A program made the position numbers and the translations under genes. From assembly GCA_944391625.1 (NCBI GenBank), contig CALXUG010000028.1, forward strand, positions 1 to 38,441: 38,441 bases of DNA. The letters run 5' to 3'. A model generated the notes under the pieces. It was not told where the DNA came from, did no database searches, and was given only the letters and a program-made list of their open reading frames with translations. The DNA is from an uncultured Clostridia bacterium. GTDB taxonomy: Bacteria; Bacillota; Peptococcia; Peptococcales; Peptococcaceae. Below, piece by piece: positions 24,997 to 38,441 of the stretch. The stretch's first letter is position 1; each line of letters begins with the position of its first letter.

Positions 24997-26625
24997 TTAC
25001 TCAGCGTTATATACAACTGTTCCCGCTTTTATAGTCTGCAATACTTTAATATCTTTGATTTCTTCTTTCGGCACATCCAAAGGACTCTTATCTAAAATGA
25101 CAAAATCAGCCTGTTTGCCCGGTTCAATAGAACCTTTTTGATTTTCTTCAAAGCACTGATAAGCGCCGTAAATGGTGATTGCCCGCAGCGCTTCCATAGG
25201 AGTAATGGCAAATTCAGGGCCAATGTCCCTTCCTGACCGGGTTTTCCGGTTCACTGCATTATGCACTGTCAGCAACATATTGGCCGGCACAACAGGACAA
25301 TCCTGATGCAGAGTAAAGGTCATCCCCCGTTTTACAGCCGACGCCAACGGACTGATTCTGCGTCCCCGTTCCGGCCCTAAAACCGAATCCAGATGCCAGT
25401 CACCCCAATATAATACGTGATCGTGGAAGAATGTTGGCAGAATCCCAACTTCTTTCATCTTGTCCAGTTGGTCCTCCCGCAAGGTCTGGCAATGCACCAT
25501 AACCGGTCGGAAATCGGTGGTAATACCGGTTTCCTGCTGCGCTCTGGCATACTGATTGATAAACTGATCCATGGCAGCATCACCGTTGCAATGCACCAAC
25601 ACCTGCCAGCCATTGGTCAAACATTCTTTAAAGAACCCGCATACTTTGTCATCATCTTCATAAACCGGATACGCTCTGTAATCCTCCGCTTCACCTTCCG
25701 GCACTTTGTAATAAGGTTCGCTCAGCCAAGCCGTTTTTGCCTGCGGGGAACCATCTAAAAACAGCTTAACCCCTGCCAGTTTTACATGATTTTCATACTG
25801 CGCTTCCAGCGTTTTGCGGCCCTCCATCAAATCCTTATCTGCCGAATCAATCAAAGGATAACCATAAATGTCCAGTTTCATCAGGCCATTGTTCTGGAAA
25901 TAAGCCAGCAATGGCTGGAATGCCTTTGAAAAAGAACCATCCTGGGCAGTGGTAATCCCATAGCTGACATACATATCCTGCGACCGTTGAAATCCCGCCA
26001 TCATAAATTCTGCGCTGGGAATAGGCATTTTTCCCAATGTATATTGGGTCAGCGCCAGTTCCTCCATCATGCCGGTGGGTTCACCTGTTTGGGCATCCTT
26101 TTGAATCACACCGCCATCGGGATTGGGGGTATCTTTGTTGGCGCCCAATATTTCTATCACCTTGGAATTGCATACACCAACATGGCCGCTGGCGTGCATC
26201 ATGACAATGGGAATATCGGCAGAAATTTTGTCCAAATCATATCTATCCGGATGCCGTCCGTCAGGGAACGCCGCATTATCATAGCCCATGCCCACAAACC
26301 AGGCATCTCCCTGCACAGGATTTTTTTCCAGATAGGCCTTTGCCTGCGCAATCAGTTGTTCCACACTGTCAGTGGTGCCAATGGGCGGCGCATCAAATTT
26401 AGGAAACAAACCATTTTGTGAAATATGGCTGTGTCCGTCAATAAAACCCGGCAGCATTGTTTTGCCTGCCAAGTCCACCTGCTGCCCATCCGCAGCCATA
26501 GCCTGCAGTTCTGCCGCAGTTCCCACAGCCAGAATCACTCCATCCTCCACCAATACAGCATCTGCTTTTGGCTGTCCGTCATTCATGGTGATAACATTTC
26601 CATTTAAATACAAGGTCTTACCCAT
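24997..26625 (-). CDS. YtcJ-like metal-dependent amidohydrolase (paralogue 1)
   Basis: This is a 542-residue amidohydrolase-superfamily (Amidohydro_3, YtcJ-like) enzyme, predicted cytoplasmic. The N-terminal beta-sandwich begins LYLNGNVITMNDGQPKADAV and includes VDLAGKTMLPGFIDGHSHIS with the HxH metal motif. Further barrel signatures are VLVHCNGDAAMDQFINQYA, VMVHCQTLREDQLDKMKEVG, PTFFHDHVLYWGDWH and FTLHQDCPV with the catalytic Asp. The tail KGSIEPGKQADFVILDKSPL closes the sandwich. Substrates of this family are N-substituted amides, formamides or cyclic amides; here it is unknown. It shares about half its residues with the enzyme at 27204-28859. AAGGAGGAG lies eight bases before the ATG. Confidence 0.92.
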   Translation of the reverse strand: MGKTLYLNGNVITMNDGQPKADAVLVEDGVILAVGTAAELQAMAADGQQVDLAGKTMLPGFIDGHSHISQNGLFPKFDAPPIGTTDSVEQLIAQAKAYLEKNPVQGDAWFVGMGYDNAAFPDGRHPDRYDLDKISADIPIVMMHASGHVGVCNSKVIEILGANKDTPNPDGGVIQKDAQTGEPTGMMEELALTQYTLGKMPIPSAEFMMAGFQRSQDMYVSYGITTAQDGSFSKAFQPLLAYFQNNGLMKLDIYGYPLIDSADKDLMEGRKTLEAQYENHVKLAGVKLFLDGSPQAKTAWLSEPYYKVPEGEAEDYRAYPVYEDDDKVCGFFKECLTNGWQVLVHCNGDAAMDQFINQYARAQQETGITTDFRPVMVHCQTLREDQLDKMKEVGILPTFFHDHVLYWGDWHLDSVLGPERGRRISPLASAVKRGMTFTLHQDCPVVPANMLLTVHNAVNRKTRSGRDIGPEFAITPMEALRAITIYGAYQCFEENQKGSIEPGKQADFVILDKSPLDVPKEEIKDIKVLQTIKAGTVVYNAE

Positions 26626-26714
26626 CGTTCATACTCCTCCTTTTTGATAAAAAACTGCTGTCATAAATTGTTATGATTAAGAAAATGCAGCTGCACAATA
26701 AAACTAGATTTCCA

Positions 26715-27058
26715 TTGTTTGTAATGTTCCATCGCCGGGAGACTGTTTGTTGCCTGCCCTCCTTCACCGGACATCTGCTTGTATGTCTGCCTCACTTTGG
26801 ACTGCGTCCAGTTCGGTCAGACAGACTGCGCAACTGTCCGTTTCAATGTCGACAACGGCAACAAAACATCTCCCTGACTTACGCATACAAGGCTGGCCTA
26901 TCCTTTGCCAAAATTCCGAATTGCAGCGGTCATTTTTGCAGACTGTCTAAATCGTGGCAGACGCAGTCTGACTAAGATAGACAGTCAATAAAATGTCCGA
27001 AGCGCTGAGGGAGCGGCAAAGATAGGACAGCCGACCATACGACTTTCACACGAAACAT
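26715..27058. repeat. Dispersed structured intergenic repeat, copy A
   Basis: About 340 bases match copy B at 33165-33580 closely, differing by scattered substitutions, a 21-base absence near 26764 and a diverged section at about 26933-27000. Internal inverted repeats include GGCTGGCCTATCCTTTGCC (26891-26909) with GGCAAAGATAGGACAGCC (27015-27032). Others are CGGACAT (26768-26774) with ATGTCCG (26993-26999), GACTGTCT with AGACAGTC around 26941-26987, and a CAGAC-GCA-GTCTG hairpin inside it. The right end ACTTTCACACGAAACA (about 27041-27056) resembles a decayed parS. No protein domain is recognised in either strand. Confidence 0.8.
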
Positions 27059-27106
27059 ACATATTAGTCAATTTGCGGCTAATACAAATAGGAATGAAAC
27101 AATGGA

Positions 27107-27150
27107 AAATAAAAACACAGCACATATGCAGCCTGACATATACGCTGTGT
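27107..27150 (-). terminator. Terminator of amidohydrolase paralogue 2
   Basis: On the minus strand ACACAGCGTATATG and CATATGTGCTGTGT form a 14-bp stem with two G-U pairs and an eight-base loop, followed by TTTTTATTTTCC. It is about 50 bases past the stop at 27204, and separates that gene from the repeat copy A. Confidence 0.85.
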
Positions 27151-27203: not shown

Positions 27204-28859
27204 TTAATCGGTAATGCAATCCACGCACTCTACATCGTCTGCCTGATAGATAATCTGCCCTTCTTTTAAAGTAGCCATTACCTGAATGTCACGCAACTCT
27301 GTTTTCGGTGTTGTAAGCGGATCACGGTCCAATACGACCATATCGCCGTATTTGCCCACTTCCAGAGAGCCTTTTATCTTTTCGTCAAAACATTGATAGG
27401 CAGCATAAATGGTAACTGCTTTCAATGCATCCATAATATCAACTGCATACTCCTGCCCCAGCGGTTTTCCTGTTCTGGTTAACCGATTTACCGCTGTGTG
27501 CAGCATCAGCATTACATTCGGCGGCCCAACAGGACAGTCCTGATGCATGGTAAACCGCATACCCCGTTTGACAGCCGATGCCAAAGGACTGATTCTGCTG
27601 GCCCGTTCCGGCCCAAATACAACATTACAGTACCAGTCGCCCCAATAATATACATGATCATGGAAGAAACTTGGCAAAATACCCAAACGCTGAATGCGTT
27701 CCATCTGGTCTTCCCGAATTGTCTGACAGTGAATCAACACCGGCCGTAAATCCTCGGTAGTACCCGTTATCTGCAAAGCTTTTTCATAAACATCTAAACA
27801 TTGGTCGATAGCGGCATCGCCATTACACTGCATTTGCAGCTGCCACCGTTTTTCCATGGCTTCGGCAAATAAATTTAAAATTTCATCGGGGTCCTCAAAG
27901 GTTCTATGCCCACAATATCCCGGTTCTTCTTCAGGCGGTATCTGGAAATATGGTTCTGTCATCCACGCTGAGCGAATCTGCGGTGAACCATCCAAAATCA
28001 CCTTGGCGCCTGCAATTTTAAAATGGGTGCGATAACTCGCTTCCGGCGTAGTGACACCTTCCAATGTCTGGCGATTTTCGTCGGCAATACGAGCATACGC
28101 TATCACATCGGTCGAAATAAGACCTGCGCCGGTGCAAAACTGAAGCAGCGGACGCATATCCGCTTCAAAACTGCCGTCTACTACAGTGGTATAACCTTTT
28201 TGATTATACATTCTCTCAGCTCTGCAAATTGCTTCGATCATGGTTTCAGCTCCGGGCATTGGCATTTTTTCCAAAATGGTTTCCCGAATAGCCACATCCT
28301 GGAACAATCCGGTTGGTTCACCGGTTACTGCATCATGATAGATAAAACCACCCTCCGGATTCGGAGTATCTTTGGTAATGCCCAGTTCATCCAATAACTT
28401 GCTGTTTACAACACCCATCCAACCGCTAGTATTGAGCATTACAATGGGAATTTCGGTAGAAATCTGATCCAAATCTTCTTTAGTAGGGTGCAACTGTCCT
28501 TCAAACAAAGCATGATCATATCCCATGCCAATAAACCATTCGCCCTCTTTTACCGGATTTTCTGCCAGATATTCCTTTGCCTGCTCAATTAGATCCTTTA
28601 CACTATCTGTTTTTCCTACCGGAGATGGGTCAAATCGCGGAAACACATAGCTGGACGCAAAATGACTGTGGGTATCAATAAACCCCGGCAATACTGTAGC
28701 GCCGTCCAGATCTACCATCTGGGCATCTCCTTTTTGCGCTGTTAAGTCCGCAGTACTGCCCACCGCTATAATGATACCATCCTCCAATAAGACCGCTTCC
28801 GCTTTAGGCTGACTTTCATTCATGGTGATGATATTGCCATTATAATATAATTGTCTCAT
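27204..28859 (-). CDS. YtcJ-like metal-dependent amidohydrolase (paralogue 2)
   Basis: This is a 551-residue enzyme of the same family as its downstream neighbour. It opens LYYNGNIITMNESQPKAEAV and has VDLDGATVLPGFIDTHSHFA (HxH), CNGDAAIDQCLDVYEKALQ, VLIHCQTIREDQMERIQRLG, PSFFHDHVYYWGDWY and FTMHQDCPVGPPNVMLMLHT. SLEVGKYGDMVVLDRDPLTT ends the catalytic core, with a nine-residue longer tail (VECVDCITD) than paralogue 1. A tandem duplication with divergence in the substrate region is likely (for example SSYVFPRFDPSPVG against NGLFPKFDAPPIG). GAGGAGCGAACTCT precedes the ATG. With the MFS gene upstream it suggests uptake and hydrolysis of an amide-type nutrient. Confidence 0.92.
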   Translation of the reverse strand: MRQLYYNGNIITMNESQPKAEAVLLEDGIIIAVGSTADLTAQKGDAQMVDLDGATVLPGFIDTHSHFASSYVFPRFDPSPVGKTDSVKDLIEQAKEYLAENPVKEGEWFIGMGYDHALFEGQLHPTKEDLDQISTEIPIVMLNTSGWMGVVNSKLLDELGITKDTPNPEGGFIYHDAVTGEPTGLFQDVAIRETILEKMPMPGAETMIEAICRAERMYNQKGYTTVVDGSFEADMRPLLQFCTGAGLISTDVIAYARIADENRQTLEGVTTPEASYRTHFKIAGAKVILDGSPQIRSAWMTEPYFQIPPEEEPGYCGHRTFEDPDEILNLFAEAMEKRWQLQMQCNGDAAIDQCLDVYEKALQITGTTEDLRPVLIHCQTIREDQMERIQRLGILPSFFHDHVYYWGDWYCNVVFGPERASRISPLASAVKRGMRFTMHQDCPVGPPNVMLMLHTAVNRLTRTGKPLGQEYAVDIMDALKAVTIYAAYQCFDEKIKGSLEVGKYGDMVVLDRDPLTTPKTELRDIQVMATLKEGQIIYQADDVECVDCITD

Positions 28860-32986: not shown

Positions 32987-33148
32987 ATATTCACCAACAT
33001 CCCTTTCAGATTTTCTTTGTGTATGTTTTGCTATATTGCGCGCAAATATTCTATGCTTAAGAACACTTGCAGTATATCATTTCCCACAATCAGAAACAAG
33101 GCCGGGGCATGAACGGGGATAAAAAATAATATATTTGGTTAATAACTA

Positions 33149-33164
33149 TGTTTCACGTGAAACA
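33149..33164. promoter_or_regulatory. parS site (ParB/Spo0J binding)
   Basis: TGTTTCACGTGAAACA is a perfect 16-bp palindrome and matches the widely conserved chromosomal parS consensus TGTTNCACGTGAAACA at every position. It lies in an intergenic region, directly left of repeat copy B. ParB-family proteins bind such sites near replication origins to organise and segregate the chromosome. A perfect match by chance in 38 kb is very unlikely. Confidence 0.9.
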
Positions 33165-33580
33165 ATTTTGTTTGCAATGCTCCATCGTCGGGAGACTGTT
33201 TGTTGCCTGCCCTCCTACCCGACCAGAAAGGCGTCGTTCACCGGACACCTGCTTGTCGGTCAGCCTCACTTTGGACTGTGTCCAGTTCGGCTAGACAGAC
33301 TGCGCATCTGTCCGTTTCAATCTCGACAACGGCAACAAAACATCTCCCTGGGTTGCGTGCATAAGGCTGGCCTATCCTTTGCCAAAATTCTGAATTGCGG
33401 CGGTCAGCAACGCAGTTTGTTTTCATTGAGCTGGACGCAGTCCATAGCGAAAGAAACAAACAAGTTGGTGTCCACCGCACTGAAGGATAGGCAAAGATAG
33501 GACAGCCGACCACATACTCCTTGGACAGGAGATAGTCCAAGATAGGACAGCCGACCACACAATCTTTCGCATGAAACAGT
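33165..33580. repeat. Dispersed structured intergenic repeat, copy B
   Basis: This is the longer copy of the element at 26715-27058. Conserved stems are GGCTGGCCTATCCTTTGCC (33365-33383) with GGCAAAGATAGGACAGCC (33490-33507), and GGACACC (33243-33249) with GGTGTCC (33467-33473). A GTTTGTTTTC/GAAACAAAC stem (about 33414-33462) encloses a TGGAC-GCA-GTCCA hairpin. Copy B also has a 20-bp direct repeat AGATAGGACAGCCGACCACA at 33495-33514 and 33540-33559, separated by a CTTGGAC/GTCCAAG hairpin. The right end TCTTTCGCATGAAACA matches parS at 13 of 16 positions. Open frames in it show no recognisable domain. Confidence 0.8.
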
Positions 33581-36095: not shown

Positions 36096-38441
36096 CTATT
36101 TACGGATAATCCGCACTGCATTCAAAATTGCCAGTACAGCCACACCCACATCGGCAAATACCGCCATCCACATAGAAGCCAGACCAACAGCGCCCAAAAT
36201 CAATACCAGCAGCTTGATTACCAGAATAAATGTGATATTCTGTTTTACAATGCGGCGTGTTTGACGGGCAATTACCACTGCGTCGGCCAGTTTGGAAGGC
36301 TGGTCGTTCATAATTACTACATCCGCCGCCTCAATGGCTGCATCAGAGCCTAAACCACCCATGGCAACGCCTACATCAGCTCGTGCCAGTACCGGTGCAT
36401 CGTTCAAACCATCTCCGGTAAAAGATACGGTCCCCTGTTTGCTTTTTTGCTGTAGAATTTCTTCTAAACAAGTAACCTTATCTCCGGGCAGCAACTGGCT
36501 GAAAATTTTGGTAATGCCCAGCTTGTCAGCCACGTTTTGGGCAGTTTTCTGATTATCTCCTGTCAGCATAACAATTTGTTTCACACCCAGATCTTTCAGC
36601 CGGGCAATCATAATTTGCGCATCCGGTTTGATTTCATCGGCAATCACAATCCAACCGCAGAAGGCTCCATCAACAGCCACATAAATAATGGTGCCTGTTT
36701 CCTCTACCCTTTGGCAAGAAATATGCTGCTGCTCCATCAAACGATAATTACCTACCAGAACTGTGTGTCCGTCTACAACAGCTGAAATTCCATGACCGGC
36801 AATTTCTTCGGCTTTTTGTAAACTGCCGGCAGTGACAGGCCGTTGATTAGCCGCCTGCACCGCATGCCCAATCGGATGATTAGAAATGCTTTCTGCGCAG
36901 GCTGCATAATAAAGCAAATCTTCCTGTGTCATATCTAATGTATGAATTTCTGTAACGGCAAACTGTCCTTTTGTCAGAGTACCTGTTTTATCAAATACAG
37001 CGCTTTCCAGCTGCGCCAAGGCTTCTAAATAGTTGCTGCCTTTTACCAGCACACCATGACGGGAACATGCGCCCAAACCGCTAAAGAAGGTCAGCGGAAT
37101 GGAGATAACCAATGCGCAAGGACAAGAAATAACTAAAAAGACCAGGGCACGATAAATCCATGGGCTGAACGGATCGCCGGTAACCAGCGGAGGAACCAAC
37201 GCTAACAGCGCTGCTACGCCAACTACCACCGGTGTATAGTAACGGGCAAATCGGGTAATGAAGTTCTCGGCATCAGCTTTTTTGCTGCTGGCGTTTTCCA
37301 CCAAATCCAAAATTTTAGCAACAGTAGAATCTTCATATTCTTTTTCTACTCGAACGGTCAATACCCCTGAAATATTGATGCAGCCGCTTAGTACCTGTTG
37401 CCCTGCCGCTACATTGCGCGGCACCGATTCGCCTGTTAAAGCCACTGTATCCAACGCCGACGCGCCTTCCAATATGACACCGTCCAGCGGAACCTTTTCA
37501 CCGGGACGGATTTGAATGATGTCGCCAATGGCAACTTCATCAGGCGCAATAGAAATATACGTATCACCCTGTTTGACATGGGCGATCTCTGGCTTAATAT
37601 CCATCAAATCTGCAATGGAACGGCGGGAACGATGTACGGCGTAATCCTGAAACAGTTCACCCAACTGATACAGCAGCATTACCATAACGCCTTCCGGATA
37701 TTCGCCGACACAGAACGCACCGATTGTTGCTACCGACATCAAAAAGTTTTCATCAAATACTTGACCGCGGGCAATATTTTTGGCTGCCCGCAAAACGATT
37801 TCGCCACCAACAATCAGATATGCCAGTAAAAATACGCCAAACTGAACCAAGTCCGGCAAAGGCAATAACTGGGCCACTAAAAATAATACCGCGCTGATTG
37901 CAATCTTCAGCAGAGATTGCTGCATTTCCGGCGTAAATTTGCCCGCTTTCTTTTTATTTTTCTCTAACTGCTGTGTGAACTGCCCATCTGCCGAATTATC
38001 TGTGTGCGTTGGCGCTTGGGTAATCTTTGTCTTTTTGGTTTTTTCGGTGATGGTGACACCCGGCTCTATTCGCTCAATTACTTTTTGCACTTCGTTCAAT
38101 ACAGTTTCCAAATCGTTGCTGTCATTTAACCGTAAAATTAACTTTTGCGCCATAAAATCAATGGTAGCATCGGCAAGCTGAGGGATGTCCCGCAGATTCC
38201 GTTCTAACTTGGCAGCGCAGTTGGCACAATCCAACCCTTTTATCAGATATACATATTCTGATTTTCCAGGTTTTGAAACCATTTTTTCAGAAGAGACAGC
38301 ATGACTGTGTTCTCCATGATGGTGTTCCTTATGGCTATGGTCGTGACCGCAGCCGCAGGCTTCACCATGATGGTGTTCCTCATGGCTATGGTCGTGACCG
38401 CAGCCGCACCCTTCTCCATGATGGTGTTCCCCGTGGCTATG
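36096..38441 (-). CDS. cadA: P1B-type Zn/Cd-exporting ATPase with His/Cys-rich N-terminus (5' end beyond window)
   Basis: This is a heavy-metal efflux ATPase in the plasma membrane; 782 codons are visible and the start lies off the right edge. From the N-terminus there is a His/Cys-rich repeat region (38285-38441), then an HMA domain with GLDCANCAAKLERN. The A-domain contains ALTGESVP, the membrane metal site is VISCPCALVISIPL, the phosphorylation loop is AVFDKTGTLTKGQF, then HP in NHPIGHAVQ, and FTGDGLNDAPVLARADVGVA. The CPC site and following SIPLTFFSG fit the CadA/ZntA (Zn2+, Cd2+, Pb2+) group. An internal ATG at 38280-38282 has no ribosome site and is not the start. No metal-responsive regulator is visible. 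Confidence 0.92.
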   Translation of the reverse strand, partial: HSHGEHHHGEGCGCGHDHSHEEHHHGEACGCGHDHSHKEHHHGEHSHAVSSEKMVSKPGKSEYVYLIKGLDCANCAAKLERNLRDIPQLADATIDFMAQKLILRLNDSNDLETVLNEVQKVIERIEPGVTITEKTKKTKITQAPTHTDNSADGQFTQQLEKNKKKAGKFTPEMQQSLLKIAISAVLFLVAQLLPLPDLVQFGVFLLAYLIVGGEIVLRAAKNIARGQVFDENFLMSVATIGAFCVGEYPEGVMVMLLYQLGELFQDYAVHRSRRSIADLMDIKPEIAHVKQGDTYISIAPDEVAIGDIIQIRPGEKVPLDGVILEGASALDTVALTGESVPRNVAAGQQVLSGCINISGVLTVRVEKEYEDSTVAKILDLVENASSKKADAENFITRFARYYTPVVVGVAALLALVPPLVTGDPFSPWIYRALVFLVISCPCALVISIPLTFFSGLGACSRHGVLVKGSNYLEALAQLESAVFDKTGTLTKGQFAVTEIHTLDMTQEDLLYYAACAESISNHPIGHAVQAANQRPVTAGSLQKAEEIAGHGISAVVDGHTVLVGNYRLMEQQHISCQRVEETGTIIYVAVDGAFCGWIVIADEIKPDAQIMIARLKDLGVKQIVMLTGDNQKTAQNVADKLGITKIFSQLLPGDKVTCLEEILQQKSKQGTVSFTGDGLNDAPVLARADVGVAMGGLGSDAAIEAADVVIMNDQPSKLADAVVIARQTRRIVKQNITFILVIKLLVLILGAVGLASMWMAVFADVGVAVLAILNAVRIIRK
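38316..38441 (-). repeat. 51-bp tandem repeat encoding a His/Cys metal-binding tract
   Basis: Reading the ATPase frame, 17-residue units HHHGE(A/G)CGCGHDHSHEE repeat with a 51-base period. HHH triplets at 38418-38426, 38367-38375 and 38316-38324 mark successive units, the last one diverging after HHHGE. The array continues beyond the edge. It probably binds zinc or a similar ion and adjusts transporter activity. Confidence 0.9.

Follow-up and report, generated by a model that had tools for sequence, protein, structure and literature searches.

The two intergenic repeats described here as copies A and B, which lie in the window (the whole stretch of 38,441 nucleotides that was analysed), are probably non-autonomous, MITE-like hairpin elements of a kind that has gained parS and spreads sites for ParB loading. 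The family to which they belong occupies, at a conservative count, at least 50 loci scattered in the intergenic DNA of this genome, an assembly of 2.97 Mb in 74 contigs that is 96% complete. In it we found at least 42 long BLAST matches to copy A and at least 51 covariance-model matches. The sequence-only reading had described a dispersed element from these two copies and would have been refuted had no others existed, which is not the case. It had also assigned the element to no known family, and our searches agree with this: Rfam gave no match at the gathering score for the window and none at E 5 for copy A, and neither distant BLASTN against phages and plasmids nor a search of viral contigs with two patterns returned a match. 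One Nanoarchaeia MAG (L077) gave a pattern match, which the covariance model did not confirm and which was taken as chance.

Both copies had been placed correctly, A at 26715-27058 and B from 33168, but their extent was drawn too narrowly. Copy A is bounded by the terminal inverted repeats TTTCCATTGTTT/AAACAATGGAAA and thus spans 26709 to 27108; copy B runs from about 33134 to 33578 (Table 1). They are 84% identical over a 209-nt core and 94% identical over the left 49 nt. A full copy consists of one bulged-hairpin module of about 140 nt that is present twice in inverted orientation (← →). The inverted-repeat layout as such had been recognised from the letters, whereas the composition from two inverted copies of one module, and an exact parS just outside the coordinates, had been missed. 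Copy A is without parS and copy B carries an exact one.

Table 1. Features of copies A and B, in window coordinates
Feature	Positions	Strand	Basis
A, left terminal inverted repeat TTTCCATTGTTT	26709..26720	+	perfect 12-bp inverted match to 27097-27108
A, left hairpin module (M on minus strand)	26737..26874	-	covariance model of right modules only: 76 bits, E 3.7e-14
A, right hairpin module (M on plus strand)	26891..27032	+	155 bits with model R1, this module being one of the 13 sequences from which R1 was built
A, right edge CTTTCACACGAAACA, degenerate parS-like	27043..27057	+	26-copy alignment; recurs at right edge of other copies
A, companion small hairpin TATTAGTCAATTTGCGGCTAATA	27062..27084	.	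sequence; beside parS in other copies as TGTTAGCCG-nAAAT-CGGCTAACA
A, right terminal inverted repeat AAACAATGGAAA	27097..27108	-	inverted match to left repeat
B, left edge unit TTTGGTTAATAACTA	33134..33148	+	GGTTA unit adjoins 50 of 69 genomic parS sites
B, exact parS TGTTTCACGTGAAACA, palindrome	33149..33164	.	genome-wide pattern search
B, left hairpin module with extra inserted hairpin	33190..33348	-	alignment with A; R1 core match 33240-33316 on minus strand, E 5.9e-7
B, optional inserted hairpin, one arm mutated	33217..33236	.	found in a subset of left modules and, in opposite orientation, in a subset of right modules
B, right hairpin module, apical TGGAC-GCA-GTCCA	33365..33507	+	156 bits, E 2.6e-31
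B, second right-edge unit (GATAGGACAGCCGACCA), ends in degenerate parS-like CTTTCGCATGAAACA	33531..33578	+	direct repeat family D4 and sequence

The small optional hairpin (CCCGACCAGAAAGGCGTCGGG) occurs at the homologous junction of either module (33217-33236; L003, L014, L027, L028), as if hairpins were nesting inside the element; elsewhere it reads CCCGAC-cagaaagg-CGTCGGG. A protein-coding reading of the two copies was rejected, the open reading frames at 26673-26975 and 33238-33558 being without a Pfam match. On both sides of copy A lie paralogous amidohydrolase genes (Amidohydro_3; 24997-26625 and 27204-28859), the DNA of which is about 70-74% identical over parts. They do not provide an empty site for comparison, because the similarity of the gene starts stops before any comparable intergenic stretch. 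At its end (38310-38441), just past a heavy-metal P-type ATPase gene, the window holds a 51-bp tandem repeat of 2.6 copies with 91% match.

Most copies of the element carry at their left edge TTTGGTTAATAAC(T/G)A followed by TGTTTCACGTGAAACA, which is the universal parS 16-mer. Searching with the module, independently of parS, gave 43 left edges; the exact 16-mer is present in 26 of them and a version with one mismatch in two more. Genome-wide, we counted 69 exact 14-bp parS cores and, when up to one mismatch was allowed, 72 sites, and the reversed pattern occurred in neither search. About 57 sites are repeat-borne, as judged by an adjacent GGTTA unit or by a module core no more than 150 bp away; about 12 have unique surroundings and mostly lie around parAB on contig C27. 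On the large contigs, which are unordered relative to the origin, the positions of 52 dispersed loci are compatible with an even distribution (chi2 12.2, df 22, p 0.95). Over these contigs, the clustering that chromosomal parS shows near the origin was not found for these loci.

The parS site is far better preserved than its surroundings. In 28 aligned edges, non-consensus bases amount to 2.2% in parS, compared with 17% in the flanks (22.7% left, 5.6% right) and 9-17% in the modules; in counts, 438 of 448 parS positions are consensus versus 488 of 588 flank positions (Fisher p 2e-16). Without the degenerate L006 and one non-homologous edge, the parS value falls below 2.2%. If the dispersed sites were neutral by-products of a recent spread from one parS-bearing copy, with too little time for decay, one would expect copies that clearly have one ancestor, which they do, and the parS-less or degenerate copies that occur among them would fit as well. 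However, the very same copies have diverged in their modules and beside parS to the extent just given while parS hardly changed, and we regard this explanation as quite improbable.

The palindrome TGTTTCACGTGAAACA of the repeat could also be the site of a mobilising enzyme that equals parS by chance, with no role of ParB in its conservation. Several copies indeed have parts of the palindrome in their terminal inverted repeat, which reads TTTCCATTGTTTC-ryGTGAAAC. Furthermore, in some of them (L022, L071) the terminal repeat and the parS-like palindrome overlap, and part of the palindrome's conservation might serve mobility. As a full account we nevertheless consider an enzyme site unlikely. Copies without the palindrome exist, and the 16-mer is present in unique, non-repeat contexts as well, both in other species of the genus and at the genome's own parAB locus. 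Moreover, the parS-like sequences at the termini and right edges are mostly degenerate, whereas the left internal one is exact, which weakens the case for a transposase site. Even if the palindrome did serve such an enzyme, it would still be an expected binding site for a ParB that has the parS-specific residues.

The parB gene on contig C27 adjoins parA, and its product aligns with Spo0J and with Caulobacter ParB. It has the parS-specific arginine (GKSR) and glycine (LSVGHVR), which in an alignment with solved ParB chains fall on R173 and G201 of the Caulobacter numbering, two specificity residues that do not vary among parS-binding ParB proteins (PMC7383237). Given these residues, the C27 ParB is expected to bind the repeat-borne parS sites. 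The native parAB locus (L087, C27:19000-37500) comes with a cluster of unique-context parS. A paralogue on contig C38 is Noc-like, with GKSQ and ERHVR providing the glutamine and arginine of Noc, and two parS sites lie some 8 kb away from it (L094, C38:7500-20300).

In other species of the genus, parS is found within 200 bp of only 2 of 41 modules; this rare linkage indicates that parS is not inherent to the family. Relatives within the genus have 3-37 parS sites, which in those examined stand in unique, non-repeat contexts, and 397 sampled members of the phylum outside the genus have 0-8 sites each. Two of the relatives contain repeat-free parS clusters that are already high for the phylum, with 15 or more sites within about 40 kb (G005:C31) and at least seven within 9 kb (G003:C45).

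In the hairpin module (about 140 nt), a long outer stem is combined with conserved internal loops and an inner GGACA/TGTCC stem, and GGAC-GNA-GTCC forms the apex. In copy A, the left module has the outer stem GGGAGA..TTTGTTGCC/GGCAACAAA..TCTCCC, inner GGACA/TGTCC and apical GGAC-GCA-GTCC (fold z -7.4 as RNA, -5.5 as DNA), and the right module combines the outer stem GGCTG.CCTATC.TTTGCC/GGCAAAGATAGG.CAGCC with apical CAGAC-GCA-GTCTG (z -7.2 as RNA, -6.2 as DNA). The right module of copy B folds with z -7.4 as RNA and -6.2 as DNA, and its left module still reaches z -3.7 with part of the outer stem cut off in the test sequence. This truncated test aside, the modules fold 4.6 to 7.4 standard deviations below dinucleotide shuffles. 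That the two halves are homologous follows from a covariance model of right halves only, which detects the left half of copy A on the opposite strand (E 3.7e-14).

Two of the compensated exchanges proposed from the letters are real, namely the apical swap from CAGAC-GCA-GTCTG in A to TGGAC-GCA-GTCCA in B and the stem swap from GACTGTCT/AGACAGTC in A to GTTTGTTTTC/GAAACAAAC in B, and both fall within one hairpin. In contrast, minimum-energy folds and the covariance alignment show that the proposed stem of CGGACAT (26768) with ATGTCCG (about 26993) is a cross-match between two separate hairpins. CGGACAT at 26768 pairs mainly with CTGTCCG near 26833, and ATGTCCG at 26993 mainly with CGGTCAT near 26927; the two seem complementary because the element is made of two homologous halves in inverted orientation.

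The more general claim that pairing is kept while the sequence changes found very strong support in the covariation. We compared 40 distinct modules taken from the genus's other species. Double compensatory changes occur at 46 of 48 pairs, and 90.1% of cells are paired versus 63.4% in shuffled controls and 32-42% when partners are slid. That the alignment followed the model's own structure favours pairing, although we do not think that this alone accounts for the gap over the controls. Most positions of the outer stem make use of all four Watson-Crick pairs. Within the own genome there are at least five arm types of the right module and two of the left module, and all of them keep the pairing.

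Covariation of this strength would also be seen if the module were a structured non-coding RNA gene or a cis-regulatory RNA in many copies, to which parS is incidental. In line with an RNA, strand M folds more stably than the opposite strand in 29 of 31 right modules, in all 43 left modules and in 32 of 38 modules of relatives when RNA parameters are used, but with DNA parameters the advantage goes in the same direction; we thus attribute it to the conserved internal loops. Mispairs give a similarly divided picture. In the module middle region, G·U exceeds A·C by 43:10, a good part of which comes from a single conserved U·G position, and this region supplies the excess in the overall ratio of 69:30. 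In the outer and apical stems, by contrast, the ratio is 26:20 (8:5 and 18:15). Typical RNA families have G·U well above A·C at paired positions, a general expectation not calibrated on these data, while near-equal numbers are expected if wobble pairing favours neither strand. The outer stem, furthermore, is wholly different between species with few wobble intermediates, and modules occur in both orientations inside one element. Both speak against an RNA reading, as do the varied arrangement of flanking genes at the 39 classified loci (19 tandem, 12 convergent, 8 divergent) and the lack of an Rfam match for copy A even at E 5. We therefore doubt that the module is an RNA. The earlier wording, a folded RNA or single-stranded DNA, is still fair in that the two are not fully separable, but the outer and apical stems without G·U excess favour DNA. 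A DNA hairpin, of which the M strand has conserved unpaired features, is probably the better fit.

With strict filters, the covariance model detected the module in each of the eight genomes that represent the genus, and 52 genomes from 43 other genera gave no match. The earlier supposition of a Negativicutes host found no support: the genus includes the ruminant-gut MAGs RGIG7294 and RGIG420, which were deposited as Peptococcaceae.

Terminal inverted repeats mark the ends of only a part of the copies. TTTCCATTGTTT/AAACAATGGAAA ends with at most one mismatch per arm bound seven of them (A, L004, L011, L016, L019, L022, L071), with a total length of 391-550 bp, and one candidate target-site duplication (ATAAA, L022) was seen among these seven. 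Most copies are without a recognisable pair of terminal inverted repeats, and many have other edges, with a mosaic look and tandem left and right units. An element-encoded transposase was not found beside the 39 loci, where only a few pairs of open reading frames matched each other and no recurring family emerged; an autonomous copy was rejected on the same grounds. A REP/RAYT origin was likewise dismissed, since a search of the own genome for a Y1-type TnpA_REP/RAYT (PF01797) gave no match at E 0.001; 5 of the 14 genomes yielded positive controls.

Among known systems, the repeat resembles REP, BIME and REPIN sequences (PMC3116915, PMC8266576) in being intergenic, high-copy, lineage-confined and non-autonomous, and in having DNA hairpins as inverted pairs. 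Such inverted module pairs are also present in the genomes G001 and G002 (L056, L132 and L134). The differences are that the own genome is without a Y1/RAYT gene and that most copies here carry parS. While a REP hairpin has about 20-40 nt with a 5' GTAG/GGAG tetranucleotide, the module has about 140 nt with long bulged arms, an outer arm that is wholly species-variable and no fixed 5' tetranucleotide. With MITEs the element shares the size of 391-550 bp, the intergenic position, terminal inverted repeats in a subset and the lack of a protein of its own among those found. Yet consistent target duplications were not found, nor was a parent transposase in the search with PF01797 or among the flanking open reading frames, and the body consists of two covarying hairpins. 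The element is hence only partly a MITE.

For the non-autonomous, parS-bearing element that we favour, the following course may be envisaged. An enzyme acting in trans would recognise the module as folded DNA and spread the element, and hairpin-templated repair could keep the arms complementary during sequence turnover. In this species, the element would have gained an exact parS at its left edge. Each new copy would then add a ParB nucleation site, kept intact by selection that presumably acts on ParB binding. The outcome would be the about 57 repeat-borne sites evenly distributed over the chromosome in addition to the about 12 native ones. ParB clamps, and with them SMC-ScpAB, might thus load at many chromosomal places and not just near the origin.

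Chromosomal parS clusters of ParABS systems (PMC7333895) share with this genome the identical 16-bp site and a native cluster adjoining parAB. In these systems up to 20-23 parS sites occur near the origin, and added sites are tolerated only within about 600 kb (PMC7333895), whereas here about 57 further sites lie on a dispersed, evenly spread repeat. In SGI1 with its parS-like sites of the IncC helper (PMC10954446), a mobile element also carries a partition site for a ParB encoded elsewhere. These are two site copies in one integrative element and belong to a plasmid system, in contrast to tens of short repeats with the chromosome's own parS. Beyond SGI1, we found no precedent for parS on interspersed repeats in the literature searched, outside of which most subscription papers lay. 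The combination of a hairpin repeat with the chromosome's own parS did not turn up in that literature.

The hairpin module itself represents a large, genus-wide and so far undescribed family. Its covariation is unusually clean, and the module probably acts as DNA. As regards parS, sites usually lie near the origin, distant extra sites reduce fitness in the species tested, and separated loading sites lead to SMC collisions (PMC7333895, PMC8357415). The genome studied here apparently tolerates about 69 parS sites, most of them placed by the repeat. It may hence serve as a natural experiment on whether distant parS really does harm, on the avoidance of SMC collisions and on whether mobile DNA can rewire chromosome organisation. 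We may even speculate, though rather tentatively, that a chromosome once had a single region for ParB-SMC loading and that a domesticated or selfish repeat gave it dozens of such sites from end to end. If true, this would be a bacterial analogue of a dispersed centromere.
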